DNA of 64,000 nt from Venatoribacter cucullus. GTDB lineage: Bacteria > Pseudomonadota > Gammaproteobacteria > Pseudomonadales > Oceanobacteraceae. Below the pieces are notes generated by a model. That model was not told the DNA's origin, did no database searches, and saw only the letters and a program-made list of their open reading frames with translations. Position numbers and translations under genes: made by a program. This document shows, in pieces, positions 7,892 through 18,064 of this stretch (the stretch's first letter is position 1; the number at the start of each line of letters is the position of its first letter). The DNA is taken from the NCBI RefSeq assembly GCF_016132445.1, contig NZ_CP046056.1, forward strand, positions 124,001-188,000, in the 5' to 3' direction.

Positions 7892-9160
7892 TTACTTACC
7901 CGGGCCGCCGCGCATGGAGTCGAAGAAGTCGTCATTGGTTTTGGTCTGACGCAGCTTATCGAGCAGGAACTCGATGGCCTGCACATCTTCCATTTCCGAC
8001 AGCAGACGCCGCAGAATCCACAGACGCTGCAGCGCCTGTTCGTCGTACATCATGTCTTCACGACGGGTGCCGGAACGACGGATGTTGATGGCCGGGTAAA
8101 TACGTTTCTCGGCGATCTTGCGGTCGAGGTGCAGTTCCTGGTTACCGGTACCTTTGAACTCTTCGTAAATCACTTCGTCCATCTTCGAGCCGGTATCCAC
8201 CAGGGTGGTGGCGATGATGGTTAAGGAGCCACCTTCTTCCAGATTACGGGCGGCACCAAAGAAGCGCTTGGGTTTTTCCAGCGCGTTGGCATCCACACCA
8301 CCGGTTAAGACTTTGCCGGAGGACGGCACCACGGTGTTGTAGGCACGGGCCAGACGGGTGATGGAGTCGAGCAGAATCACCACGTCGCGTTTGTGTTCGA
8401 CCAGACGCTTGGCTTTTTCGATGACCATTTCGGCAACCTGCACGTGCCGTGACGGCGGTTCGTCGAAGGTGGAAGCGACCACTTCACCACGCACCGAGCG
8501 CTTCATTTCGGTTACTTCTTCCGGACGCTCATCGATCAGCAGTACGATCAGGTCACATTCCGGGTTGTTGCGGGCAATCGACTGCGCAATGGTCTGCAGC
8601 AGCATGGTTTTACCGGCTTTCGGCGGTGCCACAATCAGGCCGCGCTGGCCTTTACCAATGGGAGCAATCAGATCGAGAACGCGGGAGGAAAGGTCTTCGG
8701 TAGAGCCGTTACCCAGTTCCAGCACCAGGCGCTCGTTCGGGAACAGCGGGGTAAGGTTTTCAAACAGAACTTTGTTTTTGGTGCTTTCCGGCTTGTCGCC
8801 GTTAATTTCGTTAACTTTCAGCAGGGCAAAATAGCGTTCGCCTTCTTTGGGCGGGCGGATTTTACCGCTGACTTCATCGCCCTTGCGCAGGTTAAAGCGG
8901 CGGATCTGACTGGGGGATACATAGATATCGTCAGGGCCGGCGAGGTAAGAACTGTTAGAGCTGCGCAGGAAACCAAAACCATCCTGCAGAATTTCCAGCA
9001 CACCATCACCGTAAATATCTTCGCCGCTTTTGGCATGGTGTTTCAGAATGGCGAAGATGATGTCTTGTTTACGGGTGCGGCTGACGTTCTCGAGGTTCAT
9101 CTCCTTGGCAATATCCAGGAGCTCAGGAACGGACTTAAGTTTCAGATCAGAAAGATTCAT
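7892..9160 (-). CDS. rho: Transcription termination factor Rho
   Basis: Hexameric RNA-dependent ATPase/helicase that ends transcripts lacking intrinsic terminators. At 422 residues it has the normal length. The N-terminal Rho domain ([18 protein letters not shown]), the cold-shock-like RNA-binding domain with GFGFLRS (about residues 61-67), the P-loop VAPPKAGKT (about 177-185), the [10 protein letters not shown] block and the Q/R-loop region near [19 protein letters not shown] are all intact. It has its own promoter and leader, separate from trxA by a terminator, as in most gammaproteobacteria. Confidence 0.99.
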
Positions 9161-9244
9161 AAAGGGTTGGATTTATTGCAGTTATTGAAGGGAGTTTGAT
9201 GCTTGATCAAGAGAGGGCGACCCGGGGACCCCGAGCGTTGGCAA

Positions 9245-9274
9245 ACTATAGACGCATTCCCGGGCGGGTGTCCA
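9245..9274 (-). promoter_or_regulatory. Candidate sigma-70 promoter of rho
   Basis: On the minus strand TGGACA (9274-9269) and TATAGT (9250-9245) are separated by 18 bases, each five of six matches to consensus. Transcription would start near 9238, leaving a leader of about 78 bases before the rho ATG. Long rho leaders are used for autoregulation in E. coli; whether that applies here is not visible. Confidence 0.6.
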
Positions 9275-9275
9275 C

Positions 9276-9303
9276 AAAAAAGGCGCCTGTTGGCGCCTTT
9301 TTT
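9276..9303. terminator. Intrinsic terminator after trxA
   Basis: Six A, GGCGCC, loop TGTT, GGCGCC, six T. It ends trxA transcription on the minus strand just upstream of the rho promoter. Confidence 0.9.
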
Positions 9304-9334
9304 GTTCAGTCTGCAACCTTGGTCGGAAGCGCTC

Positions 9335-9661
9335 TTACAGGGCTTGTTCGATAAAGGCGGTCAGTTCAGATTTGCTCATGGCACCAATTTTGGTGGCTTC
9401 CGGCTGACCGTTTTTGAACAGAATCAGGGTCGGGATAGAGCGGATGTTGAACTTCGGCGCAGTGGCTTCGTTCTGGTCAATATTCAGCTTGGCCACTTTC
9501 AGTTTGCCGGCGTATTCAGCCGCCACTTCTTCCAGTACCGGAGCAATCATTTTGCACGGACCACACCACTCAGCCCAGAAATCCACCAGCACCGGCAGGT
9601 CGGAACCCAGTACGTCGGCGTCAAAGGAGTCGTCGGATACGGTCAGGATGTTATCGCTCAT
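9335..9661 (-). CDS. trxA: Thioredoxin 1
   Basis: Small cytoplasmic disulfide reductase of 108 residues. The active site WCGPCK is present with Cys33 and Cys36, and the cis-proline loop RSIPTLILF follows. An ATG 54 bases upstream would add an unrelated 18-residue leader; the chosen MSDNILT start matches family length and has AGGGG placed eight bases before it. Its position between rho and ppx is the arrangement I recall from Pseudomonas. Confidence 0.98.
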
Positions 9662-9810
9662 GTGTTTCCCCTGTGGAAAAATTACGGAAAGATGGCTTGC
9701 ATTGTACGCCGACACGAGCCGGAATCAATGTGCAATCCGGTGCTGGACGTCACCGCCGGCTGGTTGCATAGTTCAGCCTTTGTCTGCAGCGGTGTGCAGG
9801 AAGAATGTTT

Positions 9811-11313
9811 ATGAGTGATGCAACCAACGCCGGCAGTGATTTGATTGCTGCGGTAGACCTGGGCTCCAACAGTTTTCACATGGTGCTGGCGCGGGAGTTT
9901 CAGGGCGAATTCCGGGTGCTGGAAAAACGTGGCCAGAAGGTGCAGCTGGCGGCTGGTCTGGATGAACAGGGGATATTATCGGAAGAAGCCCAGCAACGCG
10001 GGCTGGATTGTTTGCGCGAGTTCTCGCAGTTTCTGCAGGGTATGGACGGCAGCCGGGTCAGCGTATTGGCCACCAATGCCTTGCGCGCCGCGCGTAACCG
10101 GCAGCAATTTATTGACCGTGCCGGGCAAATATTGGGCTATCCCATCGAAGTGATTGCCGGCCGTGAAGAGGCGCGGCTGATTTATCTTGGCGTGGCGCAT
10201 ACCCAGGCCGATGATGCCGGCAAACGGTTGGTGGTGGATATCGGCGGCGGCAGTACCGAATTTATTATCGGCGAACGCTTCGAGCCATTGGCGCTGGAAA
10301 GCCTGCACATGGGCTGTGTTTCCTATACGAAACAGTTTTTTCCCGATGGCGTTATTACCGAATCCCGGTTTAACGAGGCGGTCGCCGCCGCCAGCCAGGA
10401 ACTGCAGGCGATTCAGCAGCAGTATCAGCAGCTGGGCTGGCATCAGGTGGTCGGTTCTTCCGGCACCATCCGTGCGGTGGAGCAGGCCTTGCTCGAAAAT
10501 GGCTGGGAAACCGAAGGCATCAGTGCCGCCGGATTGGAAAAACTGACCCGGCAAATGCTCAGTTACGCCCATGTCGATGAGGTCAGTCTGCCCGGTGTCA
10601 AACCGGAGCGGCGCCAGGTGTTTATTGGTGGCTTAGCCATTTTGCAGGCGGTCTTCCAAACCCTGAAATTGTCGCGGATGCAGTATTCCGACGGCGCGCT
10701 GCGGGAAGGCGCGTTATGGGATCTGGTCGGCCGTTCCGGCCATGAAAATGTGCGCGAGCGTACCCTGCAGGCATTGTCTGAGCGCTTTCACACCGATACC
10801 GCGCAGGCACAGCGTGTGGAAGAGATGGCGTTGCAGTTATTTCAGCAGGTACGCCACGACTGGCAGCTGGATCAGAACTGGGGCGAGTGGCTGAAACGCG
10901 CCGCCCGCCTGCATGAAATTGGTCTGAGCATTGCTCACAGCGGCTTTCATAAGCACGGCGGTTATTTACTGGAGCACGCCGACTTACTGGGCTTTACCAA
11001 GCAGGGGCAGGCCAAGCTGGCGGCGCTGGTGCGCAGCCACCGGCGCAAAATTCTGCCGGAATACTTTGCCGGTTTACCCGAACCGGTACGGCCGCCGCTG
11101 CTGCGCGTGGCGCGCCTGTTGCGGCTGGCGGTGGTGCTGAACCACAGTCGTGGTGCCCATGCGTTGCCGGTACCGCAATTACAGGTGGATGGCGACACAT
11201 TACAGCTGACTCTGCCCGCCGGTTGGCTGGCAGAGCATCCGTTAACGGCCCGTGATCTGCAGGATGAAATTAAACTGCAGAAGCAGGCCGGGTTGGTATT
11301 ACTGGTAAGCTGA
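9811..11313 (+). CDS. ppx: Exopolyphosphatase
   Basis: Processively removes phosphate from the ends of polyphosphate chains; also related to pppGpp hydrolases. At 500 residues it has the two-domain ASKHA fold (AAVDLGSNSFHMVLAR near the N-terminus; VVDIGGGSTEFIIG about residues 139-152) followed by an HD-like C-terminal region (LHEIGLSIAHSGFHKHGGYLL). The ATG at 9811 is chosen over 9805 because AGGAAG (9798-9803) is seven bases away. It converges with ppk, but a copper cassette lies between the two. No terminator is visible, only a short palindrome at its stop. Confidence 0.96.
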   Translation: MSDATNAGSDLIAAVDLGSNSFHMVLAREFQGEFRVLEKRGQKVQLAAGLDEQGILSEEAQQRGLDCLREFSQFLQGMDGSRVSVLATNALRAARNRQQFIDRAGQILGYPIEVIAGREEARLIYLGVAHTQADDAGKRLVVDIGGGSTEFIIGERFEPLALESLHMGCVSYTKQFFPDGVITESRFNEAVAAASQELQAIQQQYQQLGWHQVVGSSGTIRAVEQALLENGWETEGISAAGLEKLTRQMLSYAHVDEVSLPGVKPERRQVFIGGLAILQAVFQTLKLSRMQYSDGALREGALWDLVGRSGHENVRERTLQALSERFHTDTAQAQRVEEMALQLFQQVRHDWQLDQNWGEWLKRAARLHEIGLSIAHSGFHKHGGYLLEHADLLGFTKQGQAKLAALVRSHRRKILPEYFAGLPEPVRPPLLRVARLLRLAVVLNHSRGAHALPVPQLQVDGDTLQLTLPAGWLAEHPLTARDLQDEIKLQKQAGLVLLVS

Positions 11314-11338
11314 CGGTCAGCACCGCCGGGTTGTTCGA

Positions 11339-13744
11339 TCAGAATAACAGCGTTAAACCCAGACCGGCCTGCCATTGCTGTTCGGCTTTGGTGTTGCTGG
11401 CTTCGTGCTCATGCGTCCAGGCAATATCCACAAAGGGCCGTATGCGTTTGCTGATTTCATAACGGGTTTCTAACCCGATACGCAGTTCGCTCAGACCATT
11501 ACGCAGCTCATCCCGTTCGTTATTCAGTACATATTCCGCATCCACATAGGGCTGGGTAATCCAGCGCTGCGTCAGCAGTAAATCACGCTCAGCTTCCAGT
11601 GTGATGGCCTGGCGGTCGGGGTGCAGCCACAGGTGCAGATCGGTTTCGATAAAACCGGGCGCCAGTCCGTGCACGCCGATAATGGCCGCTTCCTGCTGCA
11701 ATAGTTCACGCTCCTGATAGCCGATACCCAGCTGAATATCCCAGAATTCGCTGTGCATGCGGCTATACAGCAGCAGGGCGTCGTAATTCGCATCGTGACC
11801 GGCTTCTTGATGGCCATGCGCCTTGATAAACAGCCGGTTTTCATCGGTGCCGATACGGCTTTCAATTTCTCCCTGCCAGCTGTCGTCATGGTGCTCATTC
11901 TGATACAGACCGAGATCGGCCAGCGTGCTGTGGAAAATCTGATTACCGTGTTCACGGCCATGCGCAGGTGACGGATTTATGAGAGGCGCTGCGGATGTCA
12001 CGGGTTTCTGATGATGGCCGTGATGATGATCGGCATGTTCAGTCGGGTTCTCCTCACTCACCTGAGCCACCACCACTTTGTTCATCATGCCGGAACTCAT
12101 GTGGTACAGCAGATGACAATGAATAGCCCACTCGCCCGGCTCATTGGCCGTTAACAGTGCGCTGACGGTTTGTCCTGGTGGCACAATAATGGTGTGTTTA
12201 TTCGGCAATAATGCGGCATCGGCACCGTTTTCCAGTTGCATAAACATACCGTGCAGGTGCATGGGGTGCGCCATCATGCTGTTGTTCACAAAGGTCAGGC
12301 GTACACGCTCACCGAATTGCAGTTGCCAGGGTTCGGCCTCGGTGAATTTTTTACCATTTAATGTCCAGATGTAGCGCTCCATGCTGCCACCCAGGTTAAT
12401 CACCAGATCGCGTGCCGGTGGTCGTTGATCCGGTTGTGGCAGCAGCGATTGTAAATCGTGATACTGCAGCATTTTATGGCCGTCCGGCGTGGCGGCATCA
12501 GCCCAGCCTGATACTGGTATGTCATGACCCTGATGCGGGTGATGACCGGCGTGTTCATCCTGCTTCGCCGCCATGCGGTGGTGAGCGTGTTCATCATGGT
12601 GATGGTCGTTATGTGCAGCATGATTCATCGTCGCCATATCGTGACCGCTATGTTCTTCGTGCCCCATATCGGCCATGGTCAGTAAGGCGCGCGGTCGGGC
12701 TTGCGGCTCGGCAATCGGTGCAGCCGGTTCTTTACCATTACTTAATAACGCGAGAGCAAAGCCACTGCGGTCAATGGATTCCGCTTCCAGCGCATAACGG
12801 TCGTTGCGGGGGCGGATCAGTACGTCGTACGTTTCGGCGGTACCAATGCGGAATTCCTGCACGGTGACGGGTTTTACCGGCTGACCATCAGCGCTGACCA
12901 CGACCATATCCAGACCGGGAATCCGCACATCAAAAAACGACATGGCAGCGGCGTTAATAAAGCGCAGCCGCACGGTGTCGCCGGGGCGGAATTCTCCGTG
13001 CCAGGGGCTGGCGGCAGGCTGGCCATTCACCAGAAAGGTATAGCCGGTAACGTCGGCCAGATCGGTGCGCAACATGCGCATCTGATTCCAGTCGGCGCGC
13101 TCACGCAGCGTGCTCAGCAGGCCATCGTGCTGAATCTGGCGCCACACATCGGCCAGGGTTTCACGCTGATCCTGATAATATTCGGCGGTCTTTTTCAGAT
13201 TTTTCATGATCTGCTCGCCGGGCAGGTCATGAAAATCCGACAGCATCACGACGTAATCGCGCTCACTGCGTTCATGCGTTGCCACGGGCTGTTGACCGGC
13301 CGGATGCACAATAAACGCACCGTATAAACCGTCCTGCTCCTGACTGCGGCTGTGCGCGTGATACCAGTAAGTGCCGTGCTGACGCAGTGTAAAGCGATAC
13401 TCAAAATGGGTTCCCGGCGGAATACCGGGAAAGCCATTAAAACCGGGCACGCCGTCCATATAGCCGGGCAATAATAAGCCGTGCCAATGCACAGACGTGT
13501 CCTGATTTTTCAGGTCATTGTGAACGTGAATAACGGCTTCTTCGCCTTCTTCAAATTCCAGCGTGGGGGCTGGAAACTGGCCATTCACGGTAATGCGGGG
13601 TAATGCTTTGCCGGTAATGTTCACCGGTTGTTCGGCAATGTGCAGGTGGTATTCACGCACCTTGGCGGGGGTGCCAGCCTGCACCTGCATAAACATCAAA
13701 AGGCCTGCCAGCAACAGCGGCAGACGCACGAATAATCGGGTCAT
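11339..13744 (-). CDS. CopA multicopper oxidase fused to CopB outer-membrane copper protein
   Basis: A single open frame of 801 residues. Residues 1-23 form a Sec-type signal peptide without a twin-arginine pair. Residues about 24-560 are a CopA-type multicopper oxidase with all copper motifs: HWHG (86-89), YHAH (128-131), HPMHLHG (493-499) and HCHLLYHMSSGM (542-553). A His/Met-rich loop (about 359-407) interrupts the oxidase. A second His-rich linker (about 565-600) leads to residues 601-801, which match CopB: IGTDENRLFIKAHG, LLLYSR, VHGLAPGFIETD, LLLTQRWITQPYVDAE and the terminal Phe of a beta-barrel. CopA oxidises Cu(I) and CopB is an outer-membrane copper-binding protein; normally they are separate genes. 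ATG at 13744 has AGGAGA upstream. The CopL-like gene precedes it. Confidence 0.93.
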   Translation of the reverse strand: MTRLFVRLPLLLAGLLMFMQVQAGTPAKVREYHLHIAEQPVNITGKALPRITVNGQFPAPTLEFEEGEEAVIHVHNDLKNQDTSVHWHGLLLPGYMDGVPGFNGFPGIPPGTHFEYRFTLRQHGTYWYHAHSRSQEQDGLYGAFIVHPAGQQPVATHERSERDYVVMLSDFHDLPGEQIMKNLKKTAEYYQDQRETLADVWRQIQHDGLLSTLRERADWNQMRMLRTDLADVTGYTFLVNGQPAASPWHGEFRPGDTVRLRFINAAAMSFFDVRIPGLDMVVVSADGQPVKPVTVQEFRIGTAETYDVLIRPRNDRYALEAESIDRSGFALALLSNGKEPAAPIAEPQARPRALLTMADMGHEEHSGHDMATMNHAAHNDHHHDEHAHHRMAAKQDEHAGHHPHQGHDIPVSGWADAATPDGHKMLQYHDLQSLLPQPDQRPPARDLVINLGGSMERYIWTLNGKKFTEAEPWQLQFGERVRLTFVNNSMMAHPMHLHGMFMQLENGADAALLPNKHTIIVPPGQTVSALLTANEPGEWAIHCHLLYHMSSGMMNKVVVAQVSEENPTEHADHHHGHHQKPVTSAAPLINPSPAHGREHGNQIFHSTLADLGLYQNEHHDDSWQGEIESRIGTDENRLFIKAHGHQEAGHDANYDALLLYSRMHSEFWDIQLGIGYQERELLQQEAAIIGVHGLAPGFIETDLHLWLHPDRQAITLEAERDLLLTQRWITQPYVDAEYVLNNERDELRNGLSELRIGLETRYEISKRIRPFVDIAWTHEHEASNTKAEQQWQAGLGLTLLF

Positions 13745-13783
13745 AAACAATCTCCTGAAACTGAAAAAATAAAACGATTCAGC

Positions 13784-14212
13784 TCAGGTATTTTGTGGCG
13801 GGCGTAACAGCAAAGATGGATGGCCCAGGCGCGGATTATCAATAAACCACTGGGCGAAGACGTGCAGCGGTGGTGTGGCGCTTACCGCAGCGGTATGTCC
13901 CGGCATGGTCAGCCAGTGGCACAGCTGCTGACACAAGGATTGTGCACAATCGGGGCAGTCGTCATGGGATGTGGCGGAGTGTGAGGTGAAACGGTGGTCG
14001 GGCGCGGCGTCCGCCGCCCTGTCGTGGCAGGGCAATACGTGATCTTCGTCAGTGGCAGCAATTGGTGTCGCTGCCGGGTGTGCCGGTGTTGCCGGTACGG
14101 CGTCATGAGCAGGTAATGCATGCAGCGGAGTAACGGCCGACAACAGGCTGCCCCACGCCATTAACAGCGTGCACATCAGAATCAGCCAGGCCGGTCGTTG
14201 TTTTTTCTGCAT
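13784..14212 (-). CDS. Small secreted His/Cys-rich protein, CopL-like
   Basis: A 142-residue protein with a basic start (MQKKQRP), a hydrophobic signal segment (residues 9-27) and a mature part rich in His, Cys, Asp and Ala: CHDRAADAAPDH, HSATSHDDCPDCAQSLC, CHWL. This composition suits copper binding and resembles CopL-type proteins encoded just upstream of copAB in Xanthomonas, where CopL is needed for copper-induced expression. It starts 10 bases after the ppk stop and ends 39 bases before the copA-copB fusion, so it could be read through from hemB-ppk or from its own unseen promoter. The family assignment is by composition and context only. Confidence 0.6.
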   Translation of the reverse strand: MQKKQRPAWLILMCTLLMAWGSLLSAVTPLHALPAHDAVPATPAHPAATPIAATDEDHVLPCHDRAADAAPDHRFTSHSATSHDDCPDCAQSLCQQLCHWLTMPGHTAAVSATPPLHVFAQWFIDNPRLGHPSLLLRPPQNT

Positions 14213-14222
14213 CCGTTATTAC

Positions 14223-16322
14223 TCAGGACGAGCTGGCCGCCAGGGTTTCCAGCAGCAGGCTCTGGGCCTTGATAATATCAGCGTTTTTACCCGGCTGGGC
14301 GCGCACATAGGTGCCATCGGGCTGCAGATCCCAGGCCTGACAGTTGTCCTGCATGTACACTTCCAGCTCGTTTTTCATGCGCTCTTTCAGTTTGTTGTTT
14401 TCAATCGGGAAGGCGGTTTCGACCCGGTGCAGCAGGTTGCGTTCCATCATGTCAGCACTGCCGGCGTAAATTTCGTCTTTGCCGTTATTGAAGAAGTAAT
14501 ACACCCGGGTGTGTTCCAGGAAGCGGCCAACGATGGAGCGTACCCGGATGTTCTCCGACAGTCCGGCAATGCCCGGCCGCAGACAACACATACCCCGGAT
14601 AATCAGCTCGACTTTAACCCCTGCCTGCGCCGCTTTATACAGCGCCCGGATTAATTTGGGTTCGGTTAAACCGTTGGCCTTAATGCGGATTAACGCCGGT
14701 TTACCGGCTTCGGCATGGCCGCGTTCGCGGTCGACCATTTCGATCAGTTTTTTGTGCAGGGTAAAGGGCGCATGGAACAGTTTTTTAATGCGCAGCGCTT
14801 CGCCCATGCCGGTGAGTTGCTGGAATACTTTGTGTACGTCTTCACCGATGGAATCGTCACAGGTTAAGAAACTGTAATCGGTATAGGCGCGCGCATTCCC
14901 GGCGTGATAATTACCGGTACCCAGATGTACATAGCGTTTATATTTGTCGCCTTCTTTGCGCACAATCAGCATCATTTTGGCATGGGTTTTATAGCCCACC
15001 ACGCCATACACCACCACCGCACCGGCTTCCTGCAGGCGGTTGGCCAGATACAGGTTTTCTTCTTCGTCGAAGCGCGCGCGCAATTCAATTACTACCGTTA
15101 CTTCTTTGCCATTACGGGCGGCATCGACCAGCGCATTGACGATTTCCGACTTGGCGCCGGTACGGTACAGGGTTTGTTTAATAGCGCGCACGTTCGGGTC
15201 TTTGGCGGCTTCGCGCAGTAAATCCACTACCGGGGTGAAAGACTCAAAGGGATGCAGCAATAACGTGTCTTTATCGCGGATACTTTCAAAAATACTTTTC
15301 TTGAAATTGATGTGCTTGGGCAGCCCTGGCGTGAACGGCGGATATTGCAGATCGGGGCGATTGATCTGAGCGATCACTTCCATTAACCGGCCCAGGTTCA
15401 CCGGACCATTCACCCGGTACAAATCGTTGTTTTCCAGGCCGAATTTTTTCAGCAGAAACAGCGTCATGTCTTCAGGGCAGTTGTCGGCTACTTCAAGCCG
15501 CATTTCGTCACCGAAATTGCGCGAGTGCAGTTCGTCTTCCAGCGCCGAGGCTAAATCGGCAGTGTCTTCGTGGTCAATTTCCAGGTCAGCATTACGGGTA
15601 ACGCGGAACTGATAACAGCCTTTTACCGTCATGCCGGGGAATAATTCATCGGCGTATTCGTGAATCATCGACGACAGGAAAATAAAGTGATCACCGCCGC
15701 TGGTCAGGGCATCCGGTACCCGGATAATGCGCGGCAGAGAGCGCGGTGCCGGAATAATGGCCATACCGGTTTCACGGCCAAAGGCGTCTTTACCCTCCAG
15801 CTCGACAATAAAATTCAGCGATTTATTCACCAGCCTGGGGAAGGGGTGCGAGGGGTCCAGCCCGATGGGGCTGATCAGTGGCTGAATATTGTCGTCAAAA
15901 TAAGCCCGTACCCACACCCGCTGTTCTTCGCTCCAGTCAGCGCGGCGCAGGAAATGAATATTTTCTTTTTCCAGCGCCGGAATTAAGGTGTCATTCAGAA
16001 TGCTGTACTGGCGTTCCACGGTGGTGCTGCACAGGGTATGAATGGCATTCAGCACCTGTTGCGGGTGCATGCCATCAGCCCCGGCCTGCTCGCGGGCAAA
16101 CGCCAGCTGGCGGGTTAAATTAGCGACGCGGACTTCGTAAAATTCATCGAGGTTTTTGCTGAAAATACACAGAAAAAACAGCCGCTCCAGTAACGGATGC
16201 GTTTCATCCAGCGCTTGTTCCAGCACGCGGATATTAAACTGCAGGTGTGACAGCTCGCGGTTAATGTAATATTCGCTGCTGTTCACATCGATGATTTTTT
16301 CTACGCTGTTCGCGTCGCTCAT
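14223..16322 (-). CDS. ppk: Polyphosphate kinase 1
   Basis: Synthesises long-chain polyphosphate from ATP. At 699 residues it is a full-length PPK1: N-terminal domain ([19 protein letters not shown]), head domain, and the two phospholipase-D-like C-terminal domains. The catalytic autophosphorylated His lies in the [15 protein letters not shown] block (about residues 430-445), and a second conserved block is [18 protein letters not shown]. It is ten bases downstream of hemB on the same strand, so hemB-ppk is probably one transcript. A Pho-box-like element lies upstream of hemB. Confidence 0.97.
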
Positions 16323-16331
16323 AAACCGTCC

Positions 16332-18064
<1,733 letters not shown>

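Follow-up and report, generated by a model that had tools for sequence, protein, structure and literature searches.

The locus considered here raises the question of whether the multicopper oxidase CopA (PcoA) and the outer membrane barrel CopB (PcoB) can be produced as a single protein and, if so, how such a protein arose and what it would do. The window that was analysed, a 64,000-nucleotide stretch of the Venatoribacter cucullus genome, carries on its minus strand a single stop-free frame (13744..11339) of 801 codons plus a stop, encoding a protein of 801 aa. One uninterrupted CopA-linker-CopB frame had been proposed in a preliminary description that named no strand, and its existence on the minus strand was confirmed. 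The copAB fusion gene (11339..13744, minus strand) starts with an ATG at 13744-13742 and ends with the stop codon at 11341-11339, and a Shine-Dalgarno-like AGGAG, read off the sequence at 13756-13752 of the same strand, precedes the ATG with a spacing of 7 nt. Both protein families score above their curated cut-offs (the numbering in the TIGR01480 and PF05275 searches begins two codons earlier, at a TTG). A scan for promoters and terminators returned matches no more numerous than those in shuffled sequences.

The CopA/PcoA multicopper oxidase domain occupies residues 29-559 (12068..13660, minus strand). TIGR01480 matched the protein at 593 bits (cut-off 478.95), covering positions 45-592 of the 593 in the profile. 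The four copper motifs listed in the preliminary description are all present, namely HWHG at 86-89, HAH at 129-131, HPMHLHG at 493-499 and HCHLLYHMSSGM at 542-553; three lie where they had been placed, and only the HAH motif, given as 128-131, had to be moved. The ligands of the type 1, 2 and 3 coppers, at the positions typical of the CopA family, are retained at 12 of 12 sites, and the full-length structural model found its best PDB matches among laccase-type oxidases. Judging from its sequence, the protein most likely carries a CopA-type Cu(I) oxidase. The oxidase is interrupted by a His/Met-rich insert with 16 His and 5 Met (residues 346-416; 12497..12709, minus strand), which was modelled with very low confidence. 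The earlier proposal that this segment works as a copper relay lost ground, since the insert contains anywhere between 0 and 18 His and between 4 and 34 Met among the 15 fusions described below.

Export of CopA/PcoA typically, though not universally, involves a Tat signal peptide, and the preliminary description also called CopA often Tat-exported. This does not apply here. Downstream of its start codon the window fusion lacks a twin-arginine motif, the lone pattern match lying upstream of that codon, and residues 1-23 (13676..13744, minus strand) form a Sec-type signal peptide, its type and cleavage site assigned by eye. By the same pattern search, a Tat motif after the start was found in 0 of 19 frames (the 15 fusions plus four with a diverged C-terminal part) and in 30 of 127 separate CopA proteins, the other 97 being without one. 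This contrast between fused and separate CopA is confounded by ancestry, because the representatives of separate CopA from Acinetobacter, the nearest separate relatives of the window fusion, are also devoid of Tat motifs. For this reason, the idea that a fused barrel requires a shift from Tat to Sec is kept as a suggestion.

The C-terminal part of the protein is a CopB/PcoB 12-stranded barrel (residues 605-801; 11342..11932, minus strand), recognised by both PF05275 and AlphaFold. The PF05275 match (135.4 bits, cut-off 27) runs over residues ~605-798 and covers positions 3-205 of the 208 in the profile, so the CopB part is essentially whole. The chain ends in ...GLGLTLLF, its last residue being the Phe that agrees with the terminal aromatic expected of a CopB barrel. 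The earlier reading of a His-rich linker followed by about 200 CopB-like residues up to a terminal Phe was thus borne out. The structure prediction that had been recommended was run: the AlphaFold model of the last 243 residues is a 12-strand barrel with a mean pLDDT of 83.5 and strands mostly at pLDDT >=90, and its best match in the PDB is E. coli PcoB (7pge; E 1.7e-13, TM 0.85 by target length), with 23% identity across the aligned columns. The full-length model contains the same barrel (block means 75-93), a linker below 50 and an oxidase part of moderate confidence; with a mean pLDDT of 63.5 and a pTM of 0.41 it is moderate only, and the packing of the two parts is not given by it. The PcoB-like model, the terminal Phe, the single N-terminal signal peptide and the low model confidence of the linker support the proposal that the oxidase would be anchored by its barrel on the inner side of the outer membrane.

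In its published structure, E. coli PcoB is an electronegative pore of 12 strands in which D97 and E207 form a Cu(II) site, and the authors took it for an uptake path (PMC9210255). The pore residues, in this published numbering, were mapped by hand from the alignment. D97, E187, E207, D209 and R250 are identical in the window protein (D610, E700, E719, D721 and R761), whereas N115, E130, Q179 and E223 are replaced by E, H, H and D. An alignment of 97 rows was dropped because CopB fragments were misplaced in it, and one of 26 rows was used instead. An acidic residue (D or E) occupies the D97 position in all 15 fusions, the window protein included, and the D209 position in 14 of them; E207 is kept in only three. 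Given these alterations, the assumption that the barrel works as a channel derives from its fold.

The two domains are joined by a His-rich linker (residues 561-603; 11936..12064, minus strand) of 43 aa with 8 His and no Met, or 38 aa with 7 His when the HMM borders are used instead. The low model confidence in this region suggests that it is probably disordered. What the linker has replaced became clear from 124 separate CopB proteins, in which the stretch before the barrel, including the signal peptide and with start codons set by a simple rule, has a median of 82 residues (range 21-261), 6 His and 5 Met. In the 15 fusions, a linker of 14-50 residues with 0-10 His and 0-4 Met stands where CopB would have its signal peptide and leader. 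The window protein is without the free, periplasmic, His/Met-rich disordered N-terminal domain of CopB, and a linker to CopA is found in its place. Among the 15, the linker is His-rich only in the window protein (7 His) and its sister (10 His), the other 13 having 0-3; with such a distribution, the earlier picture of two His-rich segments passing copper between the parts is weak.

The fusion was sought at several taxonomic scales. It was found in 2 of the 44 genomes of the family, those of the window and of G012. Among the matches listed for the order sample (341 genomes), the stop-free full-length ones were these same two, and among those listed for the phylum sample (398 genomes) the one of the window; a number of the further listed matches cross at least one stop between copA and copB. 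In Acinetobacter and close kin, copA and copB are two separate adjoining frames in 79 of 79 loci. Among the first 114 loci, the window and its sister alone showed the fusion, and the uniqueness that this suggested was overturned by the class sample (369 genomes), where the joint-domain search that had been called for revealed at least 13 further fusions with CopB above the Pfam cut-off, under nine family codes; this count leaves out listed frames of ~680-740 aa with a Tat-type start. Twenty long frames were fetched, 19 from the class sample and one from another search: 13 are fusions, four have a weak or no CopB match C-terminally, one (L132) is an artefact, and in two (L133 and L136) the genes are separate. 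The four oxidases with a C-terminal extension (L130 3798-6257, L131 3419-8491, L134 3040-5139 and L135 3903-5969) are CopA-like and form one clade. Against the PF05275 cut-off of 27, the best match was 23.5 bits in the L135 genome and 18.7 in those of L130 and L131, with none in that of L134; the clade is possibly a fourth, diverged fusion. In a phage collection 10 records matched, and among the best 5 of these 10 the four with at least 80% coverage annotate copA and copB separately.

Fusions are also carried by plasmids of Legionellales, where a single CDS annotated as multicopper oxidase is present in Aquicella lusitana (WP_114835397.1), Legionella adelaidensis (WP_058462062.1) and Legionella fallonii. 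The three proteins are 63-72% identical to a member (L121) of the large fused group and contain three Cu-oxidase domains and CopB, all above the Pfam cut-offs. The large fused group thus contains Legionellales. Two Legionella fusions are far longer, 1122 aa (L158 4001-7369) and 1108 aa (L159 3809-7135), mostly through a large stretch between oxidase domains 2 and 3, where the Pfam matches end at ~313 and ~361 and resume at ~759 and ~743, respectively. A Legionella anisa plasmid has a fusion-like copy with one internal stop (L160 4001-6448), at which no gene is listed in PLSDB.

The preliminary description knew of no described example, and the architecture was at one point taken to be absent from print. 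Both statements were overturned by a 2012 paper in which, in one clause of the part available, fused PcoA and PcoB were said to have been detected in five Legionella species and were taken as a hint of interaction (PMC3548706). No further description of a CopA-CopB fusion was found in titles and abstracts of the open-licence literature, and the available portions of two other papers (PMC6769254, PMC7015863) mention none. The fused proteins of the Legionella lineage resemble the window protein in having the same domain order in one chain. The 11-member fused clade has ~31-34% overall identity to the window protein, and the Legionella-lineage fusions differ from it by their origin in the trees and by linkers that are not His-rich. 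The window fusion is real, makes functional sense and is an additional, separately arisen and convergent instance of an architecture already in print. As far as the literature found goes, what is new is the separate origin of the window lineage, the measured loss of the CopB leader in fusions and the observation that the fusion is usually the sole CopB.

Both parts of the window protein have their closest relatives in the separate PcoA and PcoB of Acinetobacter (79 loci), with ~56-66% identity in CopA and ~34-45% in CopB. There, the two proteins are encoded by neighbouring genes and, unlike the fusion, the CopB examples have their own signal peptide and a His/Met-rich leader. Origins were traced with trees in which the separate rows from the sampled genomes were hand-picked, mostly as high-scoring or Tat-free. 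A first, quick CopA tree kept 61 of 146 rows after removal of separate rows at least 75% identical to a kept row; in it, the window pair was nested within separate Acinetobacter-type CopA (starred) and the f194 pair within other separate CopA (88, not starred). Five changes were counted when L132 and the four diverged oxidases were scored as fused. In a careful tree of 64 rows, which included the three named Legionellales proteins, the diverged oxidases received their own label and L132 none (L132 is likewise excluded from the set of 15 fusions, from the linker measurements and from the CopB tree). The above-cut-off fusion then required three changes, with a 5%-95% range of 3-3 across 200 bootstrap trees, which implies that the Legionellales proteins fall within the 11-member clade. 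In a CopB tree of 53 rows from the loci of the first CopA tree, the window CopB also grouped with separate Acinetobacter CopB, and so copA and copB of the window were apparently fused in place as neighbours.

A single ancestral fusion, with all 15 as one clade, was rejected by AU tests on CopA (p 6.8e-50) and on CopB (p 1.3e-6). On CopA, the test also rejected single clades joining the window pair with the f194 pair (p 1.9e-8) and the window pair with the 11-member clade (p 1.7e-4); the rejection was weakest for the 11-member clade with the f194 pair (p 0.033). These p values are somewhat optimistic because the groups were named after the tree had been seen and quick trees were tested. The history of the f194 lineage is less sure, since its two fusions do not group together in the CopB tree; L138 and L029 are long-branch rows. 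Because change counts cannot separate gain from loss, two readings of the sequences stand: three separate fusion events would be the plain one and two the cautious one.

How such a protein may work can be considered in the light of the Caulobacter PcoA-PcoB pair, which likewise joins an oxidase and a 12-strand barrel in a copper system, encoded there by two genes. According to that study (PMC12509749), PcoA becomes less abundant and shorter-lived when PcoB residues 34-109 are deleted, and His and Met residues in the PcoB leader proved essential; the authors propose that this disordered leader docks PcoA and aids the hand-over of Cu(II). Going by this account, Caulobacter PcoA depends on precisely the disordered N-terminal domain that the window fusion is without, a covalent linker being present instead. 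If leader His and Met are essential, the His-poor linkers of 13 fusions would need compensation elsewhere. We consider it probable, with good though not full confidence, that the window gene encodes a single copper-resistance protein, namely a Cu(I) oxidase that is exported by Sec, anchored by its barrel and kept at the mouth of its own channel. The whole chain would pass the inner membrane unfolded via Sec, BAM would insert the C-terminal barrel into the outer membrane, and the oxidase would fold in the periplasm, tethered by ~43 residues to the inner mouth of the barrel. Cu(I) would then be oxidised to Cu(II) beside a Cu(II)-binding pore, copper exit and copper entry both being possible, and the tether would take the place of the loose contact by which a separate CopA (PcoA) docks on CopB (PcoB). 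In evolution, the adjoining copA and copB of an Acinetobacter-like operon would have fused in place, with loss of the copB signal peptide and leader.

That a pseudogene or an assembly error has joined two genes is a concern that one of the loci justifies. In L132 (3376-6486), an apparent frameshift breaks a Tat-type copA before its last copper site and carries it into a copB with its signal peptide still in place, so that the locus resembles a fusion by length alone. In the window protein, by contrast, all copper ligands are kept and the CopB signal peptide is gone. Moreover, a separately assembled metagenomic genome, 'Bacterioplanes sp. Kmv21' (L035, JACUUC010000008.1; inferred to be the same locus as that of G012), holds the same stop-free fusion with 87% identity across 801 aligned codons. 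A comparison of the two gave dN/dS values of 0.06-0.12 for CopA proper and 0.14 for the barrel, with higher values for the signal peptide (0.44), the linker (0.37) and the His/Met insert (0.34); all 15 gap columns fall in the insert. The presence of the same join under purifying selection argues against an assembly error and refutes this explanation for practical purposes. It is also very unlikely that translation restarts internally, so that a free CopB would accompany the full-length product. Where copA and copB are separate, most loci have overlapping stop-to-stop frames, so an ancestor may have used coupled translation. Beyond residue 555, however, the window protein has a single Met (M663, in the middle of the barrel), and there is no ATG from which a separate exported CopB could start; a GTG or TTG start would be the remaining route. 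No signal peptide was found ahead of the barrel.

Two further readings accept the full-length chain and were judged unlikely, though not negligible. The fusion could be a polyprotein that is exported in one piece and then cleaved within the exposed linker, yielding equal amounts of free CopA and CopB. A linker modelled with low confidence, as disordered stretches are, and evolving faster than the domains (dN/dS 0.37) would suit such a cut; its length is nevertheless equal in the two sister genomes, with no indels, and a chain that is cut gains little over an operon, yet the fusion recurs. Slightly more doubtful is a barrel that has lost its channel function and merely puts the copper oxidase on the outer membrane. 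The differences at N115, E130, Q179 and E223 of PcoB and the loss of E207 in 12 of the 15 fusions speak for it. Against it, the barrel dN/dS is near that of CopA, the D97 and D209 positions remain acidic in nearly all fusions, and in 13 of the 15 genomes that have an above-cut-off fusion (assemblies 91-100% complete) no second CopB was found, so that the fusion appears to serve alone there. The window genome keeps an intact separate copA-copB pair (G000:C1:898166-901059, frames of 594 and 385 aa), and the fusion may for that reason be auxiliary there; another genome (G482, 88% complete) has a second CopB in two pieces.

The single-protein reading, an oxidase tethered to its own barrel, bears on the disputed questions of why PcoB/CopB needs PcoA and how it works, its mode having been argued to be uptake (PMC9210255) or efflux with PcoA docking on the leader (PMC12509749). 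Recurrent fusion provides independent evidence of contact between CopA and CopB. Because stoichiometry and closeness are fixed in the fusions and the leader is absent, these natural proteins can split the role of the leader as a docking strap from its role as a copper carrier. A more speculative idea, which we hold tentatively and with rather less than even confidence, is that CopA and CopB are one machine in which the oxidase hands Cu(II) straight to its own pore, that they have been welded at least twice and probably three times, dropping the CopB leader each time, and that the leader of a separate CopB serves chiefly to strap the oxidase to the pore.

In the Xanthomonas copLAB operon, a small CopL-like gene lies ahead of copA-copB. 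A gene for a CopL-like small protein is likewise located directly upstream of the window fusion (13784..14212, minus strand) and, judging from the spacing, is probably co-transcribed with it; the window differs in having copA and copB as one gene, and its CopL-like protein falls below the family cut-off (NF033807, 21.3 bits against 40). In L035, a counterpart 36% identical to it, which no NCBIfam model matched, also precedes the fusion. The two genes of the window sit between ppk (14223-16322, minus strand) and ppx (9805-11313, plus strand), on the far sides of which trxA-like, rho-like and hemB-like genes were recognised by eye (window 7892-17567). In L035, the same two-gene cassette adjoins a counterpart of the window thioesterase gene (17471-18064) and a gene that resembles an RND pump by eye, and these different neighbours indicate that the cassette has moved as a unit.
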